A stretch of DNA of 64,000 nucleotides from Pleurocapsa sp. PCC 7319 (GTDB taxonomy: Bacteria > Cyanobacteriota > Cyanobacteriia > Cyanobacteriales > Xenococcaceae): positions 62,001 through 126,000 of the forward strand of contig NZ_KB235922.1 in assembly GCF_000332195.1 (NCBI RefSeq), read 5' to 3'. Shown in pieces: positions 3,917-57,113 of this stretch. The first letter of the stretch is position 1. Each line of letters opens with the position of its first letter. Position numbers and translations under genes: made by a program. Below the pieces are notes generated by a model that did not search any database, was not told the origin of the DNA, and saw only the letters and a program-made list of their open reading frames with translations.

Positions 3917-4018
3917 TAGCCGTACAAAGTTGTATTAGGGCAAGTTTATTTGGTTACTCGTAAGTAATCAGTAATCAGTAATCAGTAATCAGTGTTCTAA
4001 TGTAAGTCCGTATTGCTA
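3917..4018. mobile_element. MITE family A, copy 1 (about 102 bp, TA-flanked)
   Basis: The left end TAGCCGTACAAAGTTGTATT and the right end read on the complement (TAGCAATACGGACTTACATT) are imperfect inverted repeats of about 25 bp. Both sides carry TA, the target duplication expected of IS630/Tc1-mariner type elements. The core holds GTAATCA heptamers. There is no coding capacity. The same ends recur at 43870-44121 and 56868-56976. Together with the clpC terminator this is all that can be seen in the 311-bp gap 3784-4094. Confidence 0.75.
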
Positions 4019-25553: not shown

Positions 25554-25652
25554 AAAGTAATGAGTAATAAGTAATGAGTAATGAATATAAAAGCCCCAAG
25601 TTGGTCTCAACACATGGGGATTAAGCCTTTGTTACTCATTACTCGTGACTAG
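25554..25652. repeat. Inverted repeat with heptamers and CCCCA hairpin
   Basis: AAGTAATGAGTAATAAGTAA on the left and TTACTCATTACTCGTGACTA on the right are inverted relative to each other and enclose CCCCAAG...CATGGGG. This resembles the heptamer-bearing MITE cores elsewhere in the window but with different ends. It lies just after tauE. Confidence 0.5.
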
Positions 25653-28939: not shown

Positions 28940-30367
28940 ATGCTTAATCGTATTCTTCGCCAAAGATACAAAATTATTCAAAAAATAGGTAGTGGAGCTT
29001 TTGGAGATACCTATCTGGCGATTGACCTAGACTATGTTCCTCAACGTCAATGTGTGGTTAAACATCTTTCTCCGAAAAATCCCGATCCTCAAGCAATAGC
29101 GATCGCCAAAAGACTATTTAAAGAGGAAGCAAAGTCTTTATCAAGCTTAGGGAAACACGATCAAATACCTCAGCTCTATTCTTACTTTGAAGAAAATGGA
29201 CAATTTTATTTAGTACAGGAATTTATCGGCGGGCACAACTTAGCTTCAGAACTTGAGTCTGGAAAAAGATGGAATGAAGCTCAAACCGTTAATCTTATGC
29301 AAGAATTGCTACAACTTTTAACTTTGGTGCATCATGAAGACAAAATTCATCGAGATATTAAACCTACCAATATCATGCGTCGCGATCGCGATGGAAAATT
29401 AGTTTTAATTGATTTTGGAGCAGTCAAAGAAATTTTAACTGTTGATCGACAGGAAAAAACGGTTGGTATTGGTACAGGTTCTTATATGGCTCCCGAACAG
29501 GCACAGGGCTATCCTGGAAAATACAGTGATGTATATGCAGTCGGAATATTGGCTATCAAAGCTCTTACAGGTTTGGCATCTCCAGAATTGCCTCATAATT
29601 CAGATCGATTAAAACAAACTTTAGCTGAATTACAAATAAAGATTGACCCTGAACTAGAATCTGTTTTGAGTAAGATGATTAGCTTTCAACCCCAGAATCG
29701 ATTTCCTGATGCTAGTTCAGCACTTAAAGCACTCGTTAACACCGGTCTTGTCGAATCTGAACCAGCAGCTTCCCCCACTGTTACTCAAACCACTATTGAA
29801 AAAGTCAAAACTCAGTCTAGAAAATCTAATTCACCTCAAAAATTATTATTAACTTTATTGGGTGCGATCGCTCTATTGGGAACAGGAGTTTACACTTCGC
29901 GAATTTTAAATCAGCCTAACTATAATCAACTAGAAGCATATTTGCAAAATAAACAATGGCAAAAAGCTGACGAAGAGACAGATCAAATCCTGTTGAAAAT
30001 TGCTGGTGACGATAGTGCCTTAAACCTAAAATCAATTAACAAATTTCCCTGTGAATCGTTACGTAAAATCAATCAACTATGGACAGAGCATAGTGATGGG
30101 CGTTTCGGATTTAGTCCTCAAAAGCAAGTCTATGTAGAAACAGGAAATACCCCAGGTGATTACATAGAAGCAACTTATCAAGCCTTTGGTGATCGAGTTG
30201 GGTGGAGAACTTTTGGCTCTTGGAGTTTATCTGGCGATCTTATGTATACCGATATTGCTCCATTGGGACATCTTCCTAGTCCCGGAAAAGAGATTGCTGA
30301 CAAGCCAAATTTGCGCTGGAGGGAAAGGCAACTTCTACTATCACGAGTCGATCAATGTGAATTATAG
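28940..30367 (+). CDS. Ser/Thr protein kinase fused to a GUN4 domain
   Basis: A 475-residue membrane-anchored Hanks-type kinase. Kinase domain (about 9-265): GSGAFGDTYLA (P-loop), VVKHL (ATP lysine), HRDIKPTNIM (catalytic loop), DFGAVKE and MAPEQAQGY. A Ser/Thr-rich linker and one helix (about 293-312) follow. The outer C-terminal domain (about 330-440) is GUN4-like: KQWQKADEETDQILLKIAGD, FPCESLRKINQLW, DGRFGFSPQKQVY and VGWRTFG. GUN4 domains bind porphyrins in chlorophyll synthesis; on a kinase it may act as a tetrapyrrole or other ligand sensor (inference). It converges with an FHA regulator 12 bp away. Confidence 0.92.
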   Translation: MLNRILRQRYKIIQKIGSGAFGDTYLAIDLDYVPQRQCVVKHLSPKNPDPQAIAIAKRLFKEEAKSLSSLGKHDQIPQLYSYFEENGQFYLVQEFIGGHNLASELESGKRWNEAQTVNLMQELLQLLTLVHHEDKIHRDIKPTNIMRRDRDGKLVLIDFGAVKEILTVDRQEKTVGIGTGSYMAPEQAQGYPGKYSDVYAVGILAIKALTGLASPELPHNSDRLKQTLAELQIKIDPELESVLSKMISFQPQNRFPDASSALKALVNTGLVESEPAASPTVTQTTIEKVKTQSRKSNSPQKLLLTLLGAIALLGTGVYTSRILNQPNYNQLEAYLQNKQWQKADEETDQILLKIAGDDSALNLKSINKFPCESLRKINQLWTEHSDGRFGFSPQKQVYVETGNTPGDYIEATYQAFGDRVGWRTFGSWSLSGDLMYTDIAPLGHLPSPGKEIADKPNLRWRERQLLLSRVDQCEL

Positions 30368-30379
30368 TGTGTCACAAAT

Positions 30380-31132
30380 TCAATCAATGATTTTGATATC
30401 TAAACAATAACCTCTACCTTTGATAGTTTTTAGAAATTGAGGTTCACCTGAGTCCAACTCGATTTTGTCTCTAATGCGCCAAACTAAATGATTAATGGCT
30501 TTTCTATCCCTACCAAAAGTGTCATCCTGCCATACTGCTTGAATTAATTCATCGTATTCACAAATTGCTGGGTGATTCTGATGATAGTGATTTTTACGGC
30601 TCATATAGTCTATTAAACAGCGTTCTTGTTCTCCCAAGGATATAGAATCTCGACGACGAACAATATTACGGTATAACATTTGGCGACTAAGACTATATTC
30701 TAAAGTGTGAATAGCTTGCATACTGGTCACTTGGTTAGTTTCTCCCGGATCGATAAATTCTAGTCGCCAGAATATCGGTTGATTTGTTGAACTTAATGCT
30801 CCTAAAATCAAAATATAATCACCGCTCCTAAGTGCGATCGCATCTTCAGAACGGACATCAATTTCTGGTTGATCTATTTCTCGTTGTAGAAAAGTACCAT
30901 TAGCACTACCGTTATCTACAATCCACCATCGATTATTTTGGTATTGCAAAGAACAATGATGTCGAGATATTTTCTTTTGCGGATCGTTCAGAACAATATG
31001 ATTATTGCTTTGTCGCCCGATGGAAATATAAACATTTTCGGTTGTTTGCTGAGGGATAAAATTTTCAAGAGTGACAGCATACTGCATTCCATCGGGTTTA
31101 GTAACTTCTAAATACGGATATTCTCCAATCAT
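30380..31132 (-). CDS. FHA domain-winged helix regulator
   Basis: A 250-residue protein with an N-terminal FHA domain (about 20-110: ISIGRQSNNHIVLNDP, ISRHHCSLQ, DNGSANGTF) that binds phosphothreonine. The C-terminal winged helix (about 165-247) resembles OmpR DNA-binding domains, ending FLKTIKGRGYCLDIKII. It has no receiver domain, so a Ser/Thr kinase rather than a histidine kinase would signal to it. The kinase-GUN4 gene ends 12 bp away on the opposite strand, making it the obvious candidate partner (inference). Confidence 0.87.
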   Translation of the reverse strand: MIGEYPYLEVTKPDGMQYAVTLENFIPQQTTENVYISIGRQSNNHIVLNDPQKKISRHHCSLQYQNNRWWIVDNGSANGTFLQREIDQPEIDVRSEDAIALRSGDYILILGALSSTNQPIFWRLEFIDPGETNQVTSMQAIHTLEYSLSRQMLYRNIVRRRDSISLGEQERCLIDYMSRKNHYHQNHPAICEYDELIQAVWQDDTFGRDRKAINHLVWRIRDKIELDSGEPQFLKTIKGRGYCLDIKIID

Positions 31133-31366
31133 TAAAGTAAAAATAAACTTCTTAAATTCTTAATCAAAAAAGTTTTAGGATACACGAAATAGTTTGAAAG
31201 TATATTTTTACTCTAGCAATTATTGTCTAACTATTAGATTTAAGTAATATTTAATTTCAATTGAATCAAATTTAAATATTTAGTAAATATCTATAAATAT
31301 TGCTTAATTCTTTTAAGATTATCGTAGTGGGAGTTAGAAAAATTTCTATCTAGTTAGGTTAAAAAG

Positions 31367-32071
31367 ATGATTTCTGCTCATAGATCGATCACCACATTAA
31401 TTAGTACATTGCTATTAGTTAGTTGTAGTAGTCTTCCCAACATTACTATAACTATTGGGAGCGAGCCAAGTAAGGTTGAATCGCAACCAACTACCACAGA
31501 TTCTTCGTCTATATCTCAATCAGAAGAATCAGAAGCAGTAGAATTAGAAGATCGAAGTACTCGCACTGATGACTCTGAAACGATAGCTCAGTCAAAATCA
31601 AGTTCGACATCTCCTTGCCCAACCACAAACATCACCGAGTCCAACAGAATAAGTCTCTTAAAATTATCAGAGGGTGGCGAATCAGTGAGTTGTTCTGGGA
31701 CTATATGCACGGGAGGAGCAACTCAAATCGATGTACTTGATGGTGTTGATGAGTATCTTGATGATCCTCTATTCGCAGGTAAAGAAGTAGTTTACAGATT
31801 TAAGGACGGTAAATGTGCTGCGTTTGACACTTTTTCGGTTATGGCTTCTCAAAAGATGAACCTTAAAGATTTTGAATTTGAACTGTTAGTTGGTAATGAA
31901 TCTCCTTCGGGTAAGTTTGAATCTATTGGTGAATTTACAATGGACGGACAAACGAATACTCAAACATTCAATTTTGAGCCAAAGGTAGGTCAATATTTTA
32001 AAGTCAAAAAACTTACCAGGGAAAATTTGGATTCATCATATACGCTTCAACTTTGGGGCGCACTCGAATAA
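31367..32071 (+). CDS. Lipoprotein with Ser/Thr/Glu-rich linker and C-terminal beta domain
   Basis: A 234-residue exported lipoprotein; lipobox LLLVSC with C20. Residues about 35-85 are a low-complexity Ser/Thr/Glu linker. The C-terminal domain (about 90-234) reads as a jelly-roll: GATQIDVLDGVDEYLDDP, EVVYRFKDGKCAAFDTFSVM, NLKDFEFELLVGNESPSGKF and YTLQLWGALE. That pattern resembles discoidin/F5-8C-type carbohydrate-binding folds, but I am not certain. It sits 234 bp from the divergent FHA regulator, whose binding site could lie between. Confidence 0.7.
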   Translation: MISAHRSITTLISTLLLVSCSSLPNITITIGSEPSKVESQPTTTDSSSISQSEESEAVELEDRSTRTDDSETIAQSKSSSTSPCPTTNITESNRISLLKLSEGGESVSCSGTICTGGATQIDVLDGVDEYLDDPLFAGKEVVYRFKDGKCAAFDTFSVMASQKMNLKDFEFELLVGNESPSGKFESIGEFTMDGQTNTQTFNFEPKVGQYFKVKKLTRENLDSSYTLQLWGALE

Positions 32072-32076
32072 TATTC

Positions 32077-32191
32077 TTAAGTAGGTGGGTGTAATTAAAT
32101 ATAAAATGCCTACGGCAAGAGAATAGGGAACAGGGAATAGAGAAACAGCTTAATTGTATGGTTTTATCAATTATTCTGCCTACCTACTTAA
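32077..32191. mobile_element. MITE-like element, family C (about 115 bp)
   Basis: The left end TTAAGTAGGTGGGTGTAATT and the right end on the complement (TTAAGTAGGTAGGCAGAATA) are inverted repeats of about 28 bp with a few mismatches; there is no coding frame. It starts 6 bp after the lipoprotein stop. In the rest of the gap up to 32631 I see AGCTATAAACCATAAGCCAT-type heptamers near 32402 and a hairpin CTCCTTAAAAGGAG near 32469. Confidence 0.55.
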
Positions 32192-32631
32192 CTTCAACAT
32201 ATAGGTATTAATTCTTGTTTCTAACTAAAAAGCTAAAAGATATAAAAACTATTATTTAAATAATATTTAATTTTGCTTTAGTTAGATTGAAAATAATTGA
32301 AATTAATCTATAAAAGTCATAGCATTATAATAGCTAATTCTATTTATATTGTTTTGATTTTATAGCGTTTTTCTAGTTGCCGATCTATATTCCAAGTCAA
32401 TTAGCTATAAACCATAAGCCATAGGCTATTTATTACAAAAGAGCTTGAACTTTTCCTTGATAATAGTCTCCTTAAAAGGAGAGGCAATCAAATCCTTCTT
32501 TAGCTTAGAGCTTACAGCTTTTTAACCATCATCCATTAAAAGGCAACCTGAATAAAGGTTATTAAGTATGCCTTATTGAAATGAGAGCCGCTATATGTAC
32601 TAACGACTTGTTTAAAAGACAATTTAACATT

Positions 32632-33261
32632 ATGAATACCAAACTTTATACCCCAATAACTTTAACTTTAATAATTTTTGGTTGTATTTCTACTTCACTA
32701 TTATTAAGTCTGTCAGGTAATGCAGAGATTAAGGTTAAAGAATCGCAAACAGAGTATGACATTCCCAAGACAGGAAAAGTTGAACCAACCAAGGATCGCG
32801 TCACTTTTTCTTGCGGTGAAACTGTCAATCGCGCGAGTGGCGAAAATATTCCAGCCACAGTAGCCTATGTTCCCCAAAGACAAATCACAATCCCCATTAT
32901 TGCCTGGGAATCAAATTATATTCCAGTATGGGATGCTCAAAGAAGATGTGAAACTGTATCGTCTAAGTTTCAGACCTTTTATGAAGATGGACGTTTGAAC
33001 TATTTAACTAACGGAGTCAATCAAGGATATCCCATAATTTGCGCGGTGCTTGAAAAAGGACAACTCTGTAAAGGGGAAGATCAATTATTTCAAGTCAAAC
33101 CTAGTAGCAATCCGAGAGAGATTTTACTTAGTTTAAATGAATTGTTAGAAGGGAAAACTTCTCAACCCCTGTATCAAATTGGAGATAAGCAGGTATATGT
33201 TTCGATTGAAGATTTGTTGAACAATACATCCACTGTTGATGAAAAAAACAGCGGGGGATGA
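32632..33261 (+). CDS. COP23-domain protein
   Basis: A 209-residue exported protein of the cyanobacterial COP23 family (named after a 23-kDa circadian-oscillating polypeptide). An N-terminal hydrophobic export segment (about 8-28) precedes the domain: FSCGETVNRASGENIPATVA, PIIAWESNYI, QRRCETVSSKFQTFYEDGRL, YLTNGVNQGYPIICAV. The three cysteines are the conserved ones. The ATG at 32632 is preferred; an ATG at 32581 adds 17 residues without an export signal. It precedes the protease-TPR gene by 96 bp on the same strand. Confidence 0.82.
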   Translation: MNTKLYTPITLTLIIFGCISTSLLLSLSGNAEIKVKESQTEYDIPKTGKVEPTKDRVTFSCGETVNRASGENIPATVAYVPQRQITIPIIAWESNYIPVWDAQRRCETVSSKFQTFYEDGRLNYLTNGVNQGYPIICAVLEKGQLCKGEDQLFQVKPSSNPREILLSLNELLEGKTSQPLYQIGDKQVYVSIEDLLNNTSTVDEKNSGG

Positions 33262-33357
33262 TCGGGCGGATTGAAGAGAGTTATTTCTAACCGAAAAAGT
33301 CTGCAATTTAGCTACTCAACTAATTAGTAATTTGACCAATATTACTCATCGAAAAAC

Positions 33358-36300
33358 ATGAAATGCTATCTATCCCTAATCGCTTCTCTCGTTCTATTCC
33401 CCACTGTTTTTATACCCACATCCATTACTGCTAAAAGCGAATTAATTGCCCAGGACATCTCCCCTGGATTAAAGCAATATACTCGTTCAATCTCGGTTAA
33501 AATTTCCACTGCGGATAATGGTGGTTCTGGTGTCATCATCGGCAAACAGGGGAATAATTATTTAGTGCTGACCAACCACCACGTCATTAGCGGTAATGAA
33601 AATAAAATTACGCTTAAAACTCCTGATGACACAAACCATCAAGCAACTCTATTAACTAATTTTCAATCTGAAGATGATATCGCCTTACTGCAATTTAGCA
33701 GCGATCGCACCTATAACTTAGCTGATATCGGGAAAGTAACGCCGATAGTCGAGCAAAAGATGATTGCGGTAGGTTACTCAGGTGAAACAGGAGAATTTGT
33801 TACTCAGCCGGGAAGAGTGGAAAATCTACTAGAGCGATCGCTTCAAGAAGGTTATCAACTAGGCTACAGCAGCGATATTTTGTCAGGAATGAGTGGTGGT
33901 GCGATCGTTAATATTGAAGGAGAGTTAATTGGTATTAATGGTATTAGTGCTTTTCCTATTTTAAATACGGGATACCAATATGAAGATGGCACTACACCCA
34001 GCCCCTCAGAAATCGAACAATTAAGACAACTTAGTTGGGGTATTCCCATCAATAGCTTGTTGGCTAAAATCAATCCCGAAATTATTACAGCCTACAATTT
34101 ACCCCTACCCGAAACGGTAGCCGATCTCGGTAATACTCAGTTAACGGGATGGTTAGGAGAATTAGAGAATAAAGCCAAACAAATTACAGTCAGAATCGAT
34201 AGTAGCAGCGGAGCAAATGGTTCGGGGATAATTGTAGCTAAGGAAGGAAATACTTATGCTGTTATAACTGCCGATCATGTAGTTTGTGAACAAGACGATG
34301 GGAATAAGTGTATTAATTACAACTACGAAATAATTGCTCCTGATGGCAATAAATATCCTCTAGATGCTAGCAAGATTGAGAGACAAGAGGGTGTAGATTT
34401 AGCGGTAGTTAGGTTTAATAGCCCTGAGAATTATCAAATTGCTCAATTAGCCAACTATCCCTTAACCAAAGATGATGCGGTATTTGTTGCAGGATATCCT
34501 CAGCTAAGTAGAAATACACCACCCCAATGGCGATTTAGTCTCGGATATGGTTTGGAGAGAGAGCAAGGATTGTTAAATATTAAAGATAGTTCTTTATCTA
34601 CTGATAGTTCTGGTTTAACACAAAGTCAGGGGAGTTTAGCGGGTGGATACGAAATGGTTTACACCAGTATCACCTATGGGGGGATGAGTGGCGGTGCTGT
34701 ATTAGATTTAGCAGGAAGAGTGATTGGTATTCATGGGTTAGCAGAGGGAGAAACCGCTTTAGACAGTCAAAGTGGCTCGGCAAAACAAATCCAGTTGGGC
34801 TATAGTTTGGGAATTCCGATTAATACTTTTATTGGATTAGCAGATAGATTTAAGCTTAATTCCCCATTACCGATAGAAAATAAGCGATCGCCAGAATTAA
34901 ATCCAGCGAAAAAAGAAGCTTTTGAAGCAGCAATTCTCAGTACAGAAATACCTCAAAGTAACGCAGGGGCAGAAAGATGGTTAGTAAGAGGTAATCAACT
35001 GTGGCGACTAAAACGTTATGAAGAAGCAGTACAAGCTTTCGATAAAGCCATTACCCTAAATCCTGAATTTATCCACTTGGCTCATTATGGTAAAGGTTTG
35101 GCTTTATCTGCTGAAGAAAAAGACGAATCTGCATTAGCAAGTATAGAAAAAGCAGTGGAGATGAGATCGGATTTTGTACCTGCTTTTCTCACTAAGAGTG
35201 TAATTTTAAGGGAATCAAATCGCTTTGATGAAGCTTTAGTTAATATCGAGCGAGCTATCTCGTTGCCACAAAATGATACTAGTAGAGCTAATTTATACAA
35301 CGAAAAAGGTATTATTCTAGCAGACTTAAAACGATATGCAGAAGCCGACGCTGCTTATCAACAAGCTATTAAGCTTAATCCCCTCTCTAGTTTCTATCTC
35401 AATCGGGGTAATCTTTACTCTGACCAAGGAAAAACCGAATTAGCTTTAGCTGACTACAATCGGGCAATTAAAATTAATCCTAACCATGCTCATAGTTACT
35501 ACAATCGGGGTGTTGTTTATCAAGACCAAGGAAAAACCGAATTAGCTCTCGCTGAGTATAATCAGGTGATTAAAGTTAATCCTAACTTGGCTCTTGCTTA
35601 CAACAATCGAGGTCTTATTTACAACGACCAAGGAGAAACCGAATTAGCTCTCGCTGACTATAACCAGGCAATTAAACTCGATCCTGAATTTGCTCTAGCT
35701 TATAGCAATCGGGGTGGGTTTTACGACGATCAAGGAAAACCAGAATTAGCCTTGGCTGACTTTAACCAGGCGATTAAAGTTGATCCTGAATTTGCTCTAG
35801 CTTATAGCAATCGGGGTGTATTTTACGATGACCGAGGAAAAACTGAATTAGCCCTAGCTGACTTGAACCGAGCCATTAAACTCGATCCTAACTATGCTCC
35901 TGCTTATAGTAATCGAGGTGGGCTTTACACCGAACAAAAAAAAGTAGAATTAGCCCTCTCTGACTTGAACCGAGCCATTGAACTCGATCCTAACTATGCT
36001 CCTGCTTATATTAATCGGGGTTTGCTATACGCAAGGCAAAAAAAAGTAGAATTAGCCCTCTCTAACTATAACCGAGCCATTGAACTCGATCCTCAATCTG
36101 CATTAGCTTACAGTAATCGAGGTACGCTTTACGAACAACAAGAAAAAGATGATAAAGATGATTTAGCTCTCTCTGATTACAACCTGGCAATTAAACTCGA
36201 TCCTAACTATGCTACTGCTTACTACAATCGGGGAAGTTTTTACTCGGATCGCGGAAAATTAGAATTAGCTCTAGCTGATTTCAATCGAGCCATCAAAATT

Positions 36301-38406
36301 AATCCTGAATATGCATTAGCTTACGATAATCGGGGTTTGCTCTACAATGATCGGGGAAAAACCGAATTAGCTCTGGCTGATTATAATCAGGCAATCAAAC
36401 TCGCTCCTGAATCTGCGTTGACATATAACAATCGGGGTGTGCTTTATGAACAACAAGGAAAAGATGATTTAGCCCTGGCTGATTTGAACCAGGCAATTAA
36501 ACTCGCTCCTGAATATGCCAATGCTTACGTTAATCGAGGTAATCTCTACAAAGAGCAAGGAGAAGTAGAAACAGCTCTAGCTGACTACGATCGAGCCATT
36601 AAACTCGATCCTGAGAATGCTAATGCATATAACAGTCGAGGTGTGCTTTATGAACAACAAGGAAAAGATGATTTAGCCCTGCCTGATTTGAACCAGGCAA
36701 TCAAACTCGCTCCTGAATATGCCAATGCTTATAGCAATCGAGGTGTGCTTTACCACGATCGAGAAGAAATCGAATTAGCTCTGGCTGACTACGATCGAGC
36801 TATTGAAATTAATCCTAACTATGCCGATGCTCACTTTAATCGAGGTAATCTCTACCAAGAGCAAGGGAAGGTAGAATTAGCCCTAGCTGACTATAAAAAG
36901 GCGATTAAAATCGATCCTAACTTGGCTCAAGCTTACTACAATCGGGGTCTTCTTTACTCTGACCAAGGAAAAGTAGAATTAGCCCTGGCTGACTTCAACC
37001 AAGCTATTCAACTAAATCCTAAATATGCTGATGCTTATAACAATCGGAGTGTACTTTACGCCAACCAAGGAAAAATAGACTTAGCTCTCTCCGACTTAAA
37101 CCAAGCTATTCAATTTAATCCCAACTTGGCGAATGCCTACGGCAATCGAGGTACTATTTACTTCGAGGATGGAAAAACTGAATTAGCTCTCTCTGATTAC
37201 AATCGAGCTATTAAAATTAATCCTGAATCTGTTGAGGCTCACTTTAATCGAGGTAATCTCTACAAAGAGCAAGGAGAAATCGAATTAGCTCTTTCTGATT
37301 ACGATCGAGCCATCGAAATTAATCCTAACTTGGCTCAAGCTTACCTTACTCGAGGCGCACTTTATGCCAACCAAGGAAAAAGCGAATTAGCTCTCTCTGA
37401 CTATGATCGAGCCATCGAAATTAATCCTAAATATGCCGATGCTTATATCAATCGGGGTAACTTTTACTATAACCAAGGAGAAGTAGAAACAGCTCTGACT
37501 GACTATGGTCGAGCAATTAAAATTAATCCTAATCTGGCTTTAGCTTATAACAATCGGGGTAATCTCTACAAAGAGCAAGGAAAAATCGAATTAGCTCTCT
37601 CTGACTACGATCGAGCCATCGAAATTAATCCTAACTATGCCGCTGCTCACTTTAATCGAGGTAATCTCTACAAAGAGCAAGGAAAAATCGAATTAGCTCT
37701 CTCTGACTACGATCAAGCCATCGAAATTAATCCTAACTTGGCTCAAGTTTACCTCAATCGGGGTATCGTTTACTATAACCAAGGAGAACTAGAAACAGCC
37801 CTGGCTGACTACGATCAAGCAATTAAAATTAATCCTAATTTGGCTTTAGCTTATAGCAATCGGGGTGTGCTTTACCATGATCGAGAAGAAATCGAATTAG
37901 CTCTGGCTGACTACGATCAAGCTATTGAAATTAATCCTAACTATGCCAATGCTCACTTTAATCGAGGTAATCTCTACAAAGAGCAAGGAGAAGTAGAAAC
38001 AGCTCTAGCTGACTACGATCGAGCTATTAAAATTAATCCTAGCTTTGCTTCAGCTTACAATAATCGGGGTCATGTTTACTTCGATCAAGGAAAAACCGAA
38101 TTAGCCCTCTCTGATTACAATCGGGCAATTCAACTCGATCCTGACCTTCCTAATCCCTATTTCCTTCGGGGAGAACTTTATACCAAGCAAGGAAAAACCG
38201 AATTAGCCCTAGCTGATTATAACCAAGCAATTAAACTCAATCCTGAATTTGCTGAAGCCTATGCTGGTTTAGGTAAGCTACAGATGAGCATGGGAAATAA
38301 GGAAACAGCGCGATCAAATTTGCAAAAAGCAGAACAGTTATTTATTTCTCAAGATAAAACTGCCGAGGCGGAAAAAGTGAATAATATTTTGAAAAAAATA
38401 CCGTAA
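33358..38406 (+). CDS. Giant double trypsin-like protease with 33 TPR repeats
   Basis: A 1682-residue exported protein. A signal peptide (about 1-26) is followed by two trypsin-like domains. Domain 1: H75 (VLTNHHVI), D107 (EDDIALLQF), S179 (SGMSGGAIV). Domain 2 (about 275-500): ITADHVV, GVDLAVVRF, GGMSGGAVLDLAG. Both triads look complete. From about residue 540 there are four divergent and then 29 tightly conserved TPR units (AYxNRGxLYxxQGKxELAL), 34 residues each, with one insertion (QEKDDKDD). Some units are nearly identical in DNA. It is probably a periplasmic protease/scaffold. truB follows 31 bp downstream. Confidence 0.92.
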   Translation: MKCYLSLIASLVLFPTVFIPTSITAKSELIAQDISPGLKQYTRSISVKISTADNGGSGVIIGKQGNNYLVLTNHHVISGNENKITLKTPDDTNHQATLLTNFQSEDDIALLQFSSDRTYNLADIGKVTPIVEQKMIAVGYSGETGEFVTQPGRVENLLERSLQEGYQLGYSSDILSGMSGGAIVNIEGELIGINGISAFPILNTGYQYEDGTTPSPSEIEQLRQLSWGIPINSLLAKINPEIITAYNLPLPETVADLGNTQLTGWLGELENKAKQITVRIDSSSGANGSGIIVAKEGNTYAVITADHVVCEQDDGNKCINYNYEIIAPDGNKYPLDASKIERQEGVDLAVVRFNSPENYQIAQLANYPLTKDDAVFVAGYPQLSRNTPPQWRFSLGYGLEREQGLLNIKDSSLSTDSSGLTQSQGSLAGGYEMVYTSITYGGMSGGAVLDLAGRVIGIHGLAEGETALDSQSGSAKQIQLGYSLGIPINTFIGLADRFKLNSPLPIENKRSPELNPAKKEAFEAAILSTEIPQSNAGAERWLVRGNQLWRLKRYEEAVQAFDKAITLNPEFIHLAHYGKGLALSAEEKDESALASIEKAVEMRSDFVPAFLTKSVILRESNRFDEALVNIERAISLPQNDTSRANLYNEKGIILADLKRYAEADAAYQQAIKLNPLSSFYLNRGNLYSDQGKTELALADYNRAIKINPNHAHSYYNRGVVYQDQGKTELALAEYNQVIKVNPNLALAYNNRGLIYNDQGETELALADYNQAIKLDPEFALAYSNRGGFYDDQGKPELALADFNQAIKVDPEFALAYSNRGVFYDDRGKTELALADLNRAIKLDPNYAPAYSNRGGLYTEQKKVELALSDLNRAIELDPNYAPAYINRGLLYARQKKVELALSNYNRAIELDPQSALAYSNRGTLYEQQEKDDKDDLALSDYNLAIKLDPNYATAYYNRGSFYSDRGKLELALADFNRAIKINPEYALAYDNRGLLYNDRGKTELALADYNQAIKLAPESALTYNNRGVLYEQQGKDDLALADLNQAIKLAPEYANAYVNRGNLYKEQGEVETALADYDRAIKLDPENANAYNSRGVLYEQQGKDDLALPDLNQAIKLAPEYANAYSNRGVLYHDREEIELALADYDRAIEINPNYADAHFNRGNLYQEQGKVELALADYKKAIKIDPNLAQAYYNRGLLYSDQGKVELALADFNQAIQLNPKYADAYNNRSVLYANQGKIDLALSDLNQAIQFNPNLANAYGNRGTIYFEDGKTELALSDYNRAIKINPESVEAHFNRGNLYKEQGEIELALSDYDRAIEINPNLAQAYLTRGALYANQGKSELALSDYDRAIEINPKYADAYINRGNFYYNQGEVETALTDYGRAIKINPNLALAYNNRGNLYKEQGKIELALSDYDRAIEINPNYAAAHFNRGNLYKEQGKIELALSDYDQAIEINPNLAQVYLNRGIVYYNQGELETALADYDQAIKINPNLALAYSNRGVLYHDREEIELALADYDQAIEINPNYANAHFNRGNLYKEQGEVETALADYDRAIKINPSFASAYNNRGHVYFDQGKTELALSDYNRAIQLDPDLPNPYFLRGELYTKQGKTELALADYNQAIKLNPEFAEAYAGLGKLQMSMGNKETARSNLQKAEQLFISQDKTAEAEKVNNILKKIP

Positions 38407-56792: not shown

Positions 56793-57113
56793 ATGGAGAT
56801 TGCCGTCATAGGCGTTAAAGGAATTCTCACTAAACAGGAGGAAATAGAACACTATTGCCAAGAATTATAGCCGTACAAAGTTGTATTAGGACAAGTTTAT
56901 TTGATTGCTCGTAAGTAACGAGTAATGAGTAATTAGTAATGAGTAATAAGTGTTCTAATAAAAGTCCGTATTGCTATATATCCCACAATTATTGCGCGAG
57001 GATATCAGGTGGACCTATTTGTTCAAGCGAAATACCTTCGACAGCCTTGGTTTTCTATCTACTATATGGAGTTTTTAATAACTAATTTTAGAGTGTTGTT
57101 TACAAATACATGA
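56793..57113 (+). pseudogene. GT4 glycosyltransferase remnant split by a MITE
   Basis: ATG at 56793 starts MEIAVIGVKGILTKQEEIEH then YCQEL, the N-terminus of a GT4 glycosyltransferase (the family usually reads KGLPxKQGGIEHYCxELYP). The next codon is interrupted by the MITE at 56868-56976. Directly after it the frame resumes as YPTIIARGYQVDLFVQAKYL then RQPWFS, as expected for that family, before degenerating to a TGA at 57111. Removing the MITE plus one TA restores QELYP exactly. The rest of the enzyme is missing, so the gene is dead by deletion as well as insertion. Confidence 0.82.
56868..56976. mobile_element. MITE family A, copy 3 (109 bp), inside a pseudogene
   Basis: Ends TAGCCGTAC...GTATTGCTA with TA duplicated at 56866-56867 and 56977-56978. 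The reading frame on either side fixes the boundary and the TA duplication, making this the best-defined copy of the family. Confidence 0.85.

Follow-up and report, generated by a model that had tools for sequence, protein, structure and literature searches.

Five neighbouring genes in a 64,000-nucleotide stretch of the genome of the cyanobacterium Pleurocapsa sp. PCC 7319 (order Cyanobacteriales, family Xenococcaceae; contig NZ_KB235922.1, positions 62,001 to 126,000; hereafter the window) look like a compact signalling circuit. They encode a membrane Ser/Thr kinase with a GUN4-like outer part, a regulator that combines an FHA domain with an OmpR-type winged helix (FHA-wHTH), a predicted lipoprotein, a COP23 protein, and a protein with trypsin-like domains and tetratricopeptide repeats (protease-TPR). 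The cluster is read here, with moderate confidence, as a phosphothreonine counterpart of a two-component system that controls the lipoprotein gene and the COP23/protease-TPR genes. An initial annotation, made from the letters of the window, had proposed a signal path of this kind with the GUN4 domain as an outer porphyrin sensor. The pairing of kinase and FHA regulator, the gene neighbourhood and an operator-like element speak for such a path, while the porphyrin sensing does not hold up. The five open reading frames (ORFs) are intact, and their positions (Table 1) and Pfam domains were confirmed.

The regulator has its FHA domain at amino acids (aa) 36-101 and Trans_reg_C at aa 185-244, and Pfam gives these two alone, in agreement with the annotated lack of a receiver domain. 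The residues expected for function at the FHA phosphothreonine site are present (GR 39-40, SRxH 56-59, NG 78-79). G39, R40 and H59 are invariant, and R57, N78 and G79 nearly so, in a 13-row FHA alignment (A1). Used as a profile, this alignment, whose rows were picked by FHA similarity and not by neighbours, gave 29 matches with E <= 1e-25, spread over 25 of the 340 genomes searched in the order; the loci that supplied the profile sequences are among the 29. A Ser/Thr kinase gene, found by single-sequence search for kinase domains, is located within 5.3 kb of the FHA-wHTH gene in 26 of the 29 loci and within 2.3 kb in 25, and in 18 of them the two are not separated by any gene of at least 100 aa. 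Of 40 control stretches, each 14 kb long and situated 100 kb away from a COP23 gene on its contig, in other genomes than most of the FHA loci, one contained a kinase gene, identically at both E-value limits (25/29 vs 1/40, Fisher p 1.4e-13). The kinase-FHA association seen in the window recurs across the order, and the gene grouping is not due to chance.

Outside the kinase domain the paired kinases vary. GUN4 is found in those of the window, Stanieria, L209, L214 and L216, while other non-kinase parts are PsbP-like (L208), related to sulfatase-modifying factor (L217, L267) or made up of TPRs (L272); the kinases of L213, L262 and L270 have several membrane segments. Several thus carry a C-terminal domain other than GUN4, or none that is recognised. 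Given this variation, what stays constant is the combination of kinase and FHA-wHTH, with GUN4 as one among several exchangeable sensor-like parts.

The second line of evidence is a short element consisting of four TTKAR boxes at 11/11/10-bp steps. The pattern was drawn by eye from an alignment of the region upstream of the FHA gene in the window and in two Stanieria loci (L151 and L152), where element 1 is conserved at the same place. FHA and lipoprotein genes are transcribed away from each other, and element 1 lies in the intergenic region between them (31133-31366), which the initial annotation had named as a stretch to be checked for DNA binding. A second copy, by sequence match, precedes the COP23 gene; this element 2 is the only site predicted by the pattern, that is, outside its derivation. 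The window holds exactly these two exact matches and none with one mismatch, where 100 shuffles gave expectations of 0.00 exact matches and 0.03 with one mismatch allowed. When the upstream regions of 20 loci (188 in all) were scored, only those of this cluster reached 20/20. When 343 box spacings were compared over 2.44 Mb (160 loci, some overlapping), 11/11/10 gave six matches and the mean was 0.18. The sole spacing with more was 14/14/14, with 18, all of them in L329/L331 and mostly at 7- and 14-bp steps, like a short tandem repeat; the remaining spacings gave three or fewer. The hexamer TATAAA starts at 31292 and 32309, 16 and 17 bases past elements 1 and 2, respectively.

In the compared loci (2.26 Mb, duplicates included) there are eight exact matches, in L151, L152, L202, the repeats L231-L233 and L308. 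The one in L151 is between the FHA and protease genes, and those in L231-L233 are repeats of the copies in the window or in L151/L152/L202. Beyond the window and Stanieria, the FHA loci do not retain the exact element; L218 has a one-mismatch match about 3 kb from its FHA gene. Weaker elements scoring 18/20 in L208 (before COP23) and L209 (in the FHA-kinase gap) were discarded, as the same score occurs at an unrelated gene in L193. The link between the FHA-wHTH regulator and the TTKAR element is a prediction.

The genes adjoin in several relatives as well, for example in Stanieria, L210 and L208, which bears out the neighbourhood suggested by the initial annotation. Both Stanieria plasmids compared (NC_019765.1 and AP017376.1; L151 and L152) have kinase-GUN4 (+), FHA-wHTH (-), and then an S1C protease, COP23 and protease-TPR (+). 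The FHA proteins are 76-77% identical to that of the window, and two genes, of Uma2 and TnpB type, are inserted between kinase and FHA (L151:9800-11669). Transposase genes interrupt the S1C protease gene of Stanieria NIES-3757 (L152:11766-13882). In L210 (genome G003) the genes for FHA, kinase, trypsin, COP23, a second COP23 and trypsin-TPR are all found on one strand. L208 (G013) has COP23, trypsin-TPR, TPR and FHA on one strand and a convergent kinase, the C-terminal part of which matches PsbP_2. The FHA gene is interrupted by stops in G023 (L009); a 185-aa ORF with the length and place of the Uma2 gene stands beside it (L009:2775-3332). Among 27 genomes of the family, full-length-type FHA matches (E <= 1e-50) occur in seven. 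Lipoprotein matches occur in three of the 27, the own genome counted; the lipoprotein is a variable member of the cluster. Two further places were noted. At L205:1710-3206 a kinase stands by COP23 and trypsin-TPR genes, with a weak PPC match (below the Pfam cut-off) replacing GUN4; no FHA-wHTH gene was found in the 14 kb examined. On a second contig of the own genome, 69.6 kb long, several consecutive kinase genes stand next to GUN4, trypsin-TPR, COP23 and another kinase gene (L191, G000:C3:12000-31999), possibly a paralogous cluster.

Export had been proposed for three proteins of the cluster, and it is predicted for all of them from their N-termini. The lipoprotein carries the lipobox LLVSC, as read from the sequence, and its 234 aa gave no Pfam or NCBIfam match. 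COP23 matches PF14218 with E 4.6e-34, and its internal ATG at 32632 is a more likely start than 32581. Protease-TPR has a signal-like N-terminus (hydrophobic aa 5-23), and both its trypsin-like domains contain the His, Asp and GxSGG triad motifs. From their sequences, the N-termini of COP23 and the protease are consistent with an extracytoplasmic site. Four cysteines (C61, C106, C137 and C146) are invariant across 59 COP23 sequences, which likewise fits such a site. The AlphaFold model of COP23 has a mean predicted local distance difference test (pLDDT) score of 77, with 101 of 209 residues at 90 or above, and comparison of the fold with the PDB brought up nothing convincing (best Foldseek E 0.15; best VIA-align Z 4.2, across 54 residues); a new fold is not claimed.

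PF14218 is found in 97 of 292 genomes of the phylum, with 13 matches in the own genome. Forty COP23 places were sampled from 150 listed matches, on long contigs of 35 genomes, one per genome plus five; the sample is not random, and the places in G154, G048 and G144 had been examined beforehand. Within 7 kb, a trypsin-like gene was found at 27 of the 40 loci and a kinase gene at 12, compared with 0/40 and 1/40 in the controls (Fisher p 1.6e-11 and 0.0015). The COP23 gene itself was left unlabelled by the single-sequence search in L281, L295, L300, L306 and L307, all of which were kept in the count. We know of no test of the role of COP23. Transcripts of COP23 in UCYN-A show a strong day/night swing (PMC6315102). 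In the accessible open-licence literature on COP23, nothing was found that links it to neighbouring genes for proteases, kinases or FHA regulators.

Several observations weigh against the proposed circuit. The pattern was drawn post hoc from element 1 and its Stanieria counterpart, and the repeats around element 2 had already been listed. In L210 the 610 bp before the FHA gene, an upstream region fully in view, hold no element (best score 15/20), which lowers confidence in the circuit. The opposite case is found in G026 (L202), with an exact element before COP23 though no FHA-wHTH gene was found in the assembly. Eight residues encoded there, GEYPFLEA, match the FHA start and have the position and direction expected of it; they may be the scar of a deletion, although the match by itself lacks significance (BLAST E 1.4). 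The element of L202 probably represents the orthologous promoter and does not count as an independent site. Two overlapping one-mismatch matches occur in a repeated stretch of L229, a COP23 locus without FHA-wHTH, and another FHA-less COP23 locus, L308, has an exact match (1924-1960) that is 4.8 kb from COP23 and falls within an opposite-strand ORF of 1069 aa. The latter is taken as a chance match. No kinase is in view at three of the 29 FHA loci, namely L211 (a 3.9-kb contig that ends at the gene), L215 and L264 (a broken gene), nor at L219, an FHA locus outside the order. The gap of 12 bp between the kinase and FHA genes, as first annotated, was borne out, but the orientation had to be corrected: the two genes are convergent, end to end, and are therefore not co-transcribed here. 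Finally, FHA-wHTH was found at none of the 40 sampled COP23 loci, and the module therefore does not need that regulator.

Some of these observations also support another explanation, in which the cluster consists of two adjacent but separate units: an independent COP23/trypsin/TPR export module, and a kinase-FHA pair acting elsewhere. The element would then belong to a different regulator, possibly an OmpR family member. Many COP23-trypsin loci have no FHA-wHTH, the element is kept in G026 and absent before the FHA gene of L210, and an Aulosira plasmid has the COP23/protease module with neither kinase nor FHA within 16 kb. Against two separate units speak the one-strand arrangement of six genes in L210 and of four in L208, and the gene order kept in Stanieria. 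Moreover, no element within two mismatches was found at L153, L203 and L205, which have the module without FHA. Separate units are considered a possible but rather unlikely explanation.

The kinase has its catalytic residues in place (VVK 39-41, HRD 137, DFG 158), with Pkinase at aa 10-255 and GUN4 at aa 325-447 (E 2e-31, Pfam). Hydropathy gives a single hydrophobic stretch of 19 residues, aa 302-320, preceded by a K/R-rich sequence, and GUN4 is therefore predicted to lie outside the cytoplasm, as had been annotated. An outer GUN4 as a rule was rejected, since the kinase-GUN4 genes nearest FHA in the distant loci L214 and L216 lack a membrane segment; the outer-sensor reading is therefore limited to the window, Stanieria and near relatives. 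GUN4 as a constant part was likewise rejected: GUN4 matches (E <= 1e-14) occur in at least 280 of 330 genomes. At 20 GUN4-paralog loci sampled from the matches listed, no trypsin, COP23 or FHA-wHTH neighbours were found within about 6 kb or up to the contig end.

It has been suggested that a kinase-GUN4 fusion could report tetrapyrrole (PMC1262709), and tetrapyrrole sensing has been suggested for GUN4 fusions in general (PMC7159879), in line with the porphyrin sensor of the initial annotation. The GUN4 fold is indeed retained: the predicted domain (pLDDT 92.9) fits solved GUN4 structures with a query TM-score of 0.68-0.77 (0.77 for 4xkb). Phe196, Arg214 and Trp192 have roles in the binding of tetrapyrroles by GUN4 (PMC8967248), and both the bilin motif LxNxLR and its loss in cyanobacterial paralogs have been described (PMC10156173). 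In an alignment with the GUN4 ortholog of the own genome (L201), which retains LSNQLR and the Phe, the LxNxLR stretch including Arg214 aligns to SPGKEI in the window protein. An alignment with 1y6i, which ends at residue 209, shows that Trp192 and Phe196 are both replaced, the latter by Met (Leu in the alignment with L201). Trp192 is Ser in the window, but its loss says little because L201 also deviates there, having Tyr. Since LxNxLR with Arg214 and Phe196 are replaced, a tetrapyrrole signal for this kinase is unlikely as judged from the sequence; several FHA-paired kinases also have no GUN4, and a sensor path of this kind is considered very improbable. Missing ligand-binding residues are among the outcomes that the initial annotation itself had named as refuting its reading. 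Our guess at the ligand would be an extracytoplasmic protein or peptide.

GUN4 is also combined with other domains. Trypsin-GUN4 fusions, which have been mentioned (PMC7159879), were seen at L308:5455-6735 and L198:8229-10034; the former has an N-terminal hydrophobic segment and directly adjoins the COP23 gene. One protein of the own genome (L199:6497-9037) has CHAT, NB-ARC/STAND-type ATPase and C-terminal GUN4 matches.

An anti-phage role, with a PD-T4-6-like defence kinase and the proteases as effectors, is the least probable explanation. In its favour, the PADLOC PD-T4-6 model PDLC04062 spans kinase aa 5-474 (E 1.2e-106), matches to LmuA (E 9.4e-31) and RT-Protease_XI (E 1.5e-22) cover protease aa 1-531, and the Stanieria copies are on plasmids typed as conjugative. 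Against it, the kinase matches no fewer than 20 PD-T4-6 models, making the label unspecific, PADLOC gave no match for FHA, lipoprotein or COP23, and COP23, lipoprotein and protease are predicted to be exported.

The initial annotation knew of no such pathway, which was too strong a statement, as mycobacterial PknH-EmbR is a close functional precedent. PknH is a Ser/Thr kinase with an extracellular domain, and EmbR, which combines an OmpR-type DNA-binding domain with FHA, needs its FHA domain for the kinase interaction and controls cell-envelope genes (PMC4601284; the pair is also treated in PMC6213207). Like PknH, the window kinase is a membrane Ser/Thr kinase with a predicted extracytoplasmic domain and its catalytic residues present, and like EmbR, the regulator has an OmpR-type DNA-binding domain together with an FHA domain that keeps its phosphothreonine-site residues. 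While EmbR has the order winged helix, BTA, FHA, the FHA domain comes first here and Pfam gives no BTA match, and the outer domain is GUN4-like, unlike that of PknH. Domain order and missing BTA speak against membership in the EmbR (SARP) family, not against a similar mode of action.

Kinase-GUN4 fusions are already known since 2005, with a fusion from Nostoc PCC 7120 (PMC1262709); alr4949 of Anabaena PCC 7120 is listed as a kinase with C-terminal GUN4 (PMC2176072). An FHA partner, operator or protease module is not described in the accessible text on these published fusions. Neither was a description of a cyanobacterial FHA-wHTH/kinase pair, or of a COP23-protease link, found in the accessible open-licence literature searched.

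The cluster shares with OmpR/PhoB two-component systems a sensor kinase and a neighbouring winged-helix regulator, but a Ser/Thr kinase replaces the histidine kinase and FHA replaces the receiver domain. Tandem direct repeats with steps of about 11 bp, as in OmpR/PhoB operators, are present upstream of the candidate target genes; judged by sequence, the element resembles PhoB boxes in arrangement.

The circuit proposed here starts from domains with their key residues, a predicted topology, a recurring neighbourhood and the element, all seen at the sequence level. We infer that a signal engaging the GUN4-like ectodomain, an exchangeable sensor-like part, would cause the Ser/Thr kinase to autophosphorylate. 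The FHA domain would then dock on a phosphothreonine of the kinase, or the FHA-wHTH protein might itself be phosphorylated, or both. The OmpR-type winged helix would next bind the four-box TTKAR element at its two sites. The putative targets, to be activated or repressed, would be the gene of FHA-wHTH itself, the lipoprotein gene and the COP23/protease-TPR genes. Their products would act outside the cytoplasm and could feed back on the outer domain of the kinase.

Table 1. Positions of the genes, gene parts and candidate operator elements of the cluster in the window.
Feature	Position	Strand	Remarks
Membrane Ser/Thr kinase, 475 aa	28940-30367	+	Pkinase and GUN4 (Pfam)
Pkinase	28967-29704		part of kinase gene
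Membrane segment	about 29843-29899		part of kinase gene
GUN4-like ectodomain	29912-30280		part of kinase gene
FHA-winged-helix regulator (FHA-wHTH), 250 aa	30380-31132	-	Pfam; no receiver domain
OmpR-type winged helix	30401-30580		part of FHA-wHTH gene
FHA	30830-31027		part of FHA-wHTH gene
Operator-like element 1	31239-31275	+	four TTKAR boxes, 11/11/10-bp steps; exact pattern match
Predicted lipoprotein, 234 aa	31367-32071	+	lipobox; no Pfam/NCBIfam family
Operator-like element 2	32255-32291	+	upstream of COP23; exact pattern match
COP23 protein	32632-33261 (ORF opens 32581)	+	PF14218; N-terminal hydrophobic segment
Protease-TPR protein, 1682 aa	33358-38406	+	two Trypsin_2 stretches, about 29 TPRs (Pfam)

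The host genome assembly comprises 7.39 Mb. Consensus scans of the window did not exceed shuffled sequences, either for promoters (24 found, shuffle mean 30.2) or for terminators (5 found, mean 7.4), and neither an RNA family at gathering score nor a tRNA was found in it. The heptamer AGTAATC/AGTAATG forms dispersed short arrays in the window, at 3963-3993, 25556-25584 and 56914-56951.

Bacterial Ser/Thr kinases seldom have an assigned partner and output. A 2007 cyanobacterial survey (PMC2176072) touches on the subject of complete signalling pathways that involve a bacterial kinase. In this cluster the adjacent FHA regulator and the short candidate operator mean that kinase, reader and DNA target can be assayed together, and COP23 is tied by neighbourhood to trypsin-like proteases. 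More broadly, and tentatively, modular kinases with interchangeable sensor-like parts (GUN4-like, PsbP-like, sulfatase-modifying-factor, TPR or multi-pass membrane) may form pairs with FHA-wHTH across the order; in this lineage such a pair would exert four-box control over the COP23/trypsin/TPR module, with proteolysis maybe feeding back on the ectodomain.

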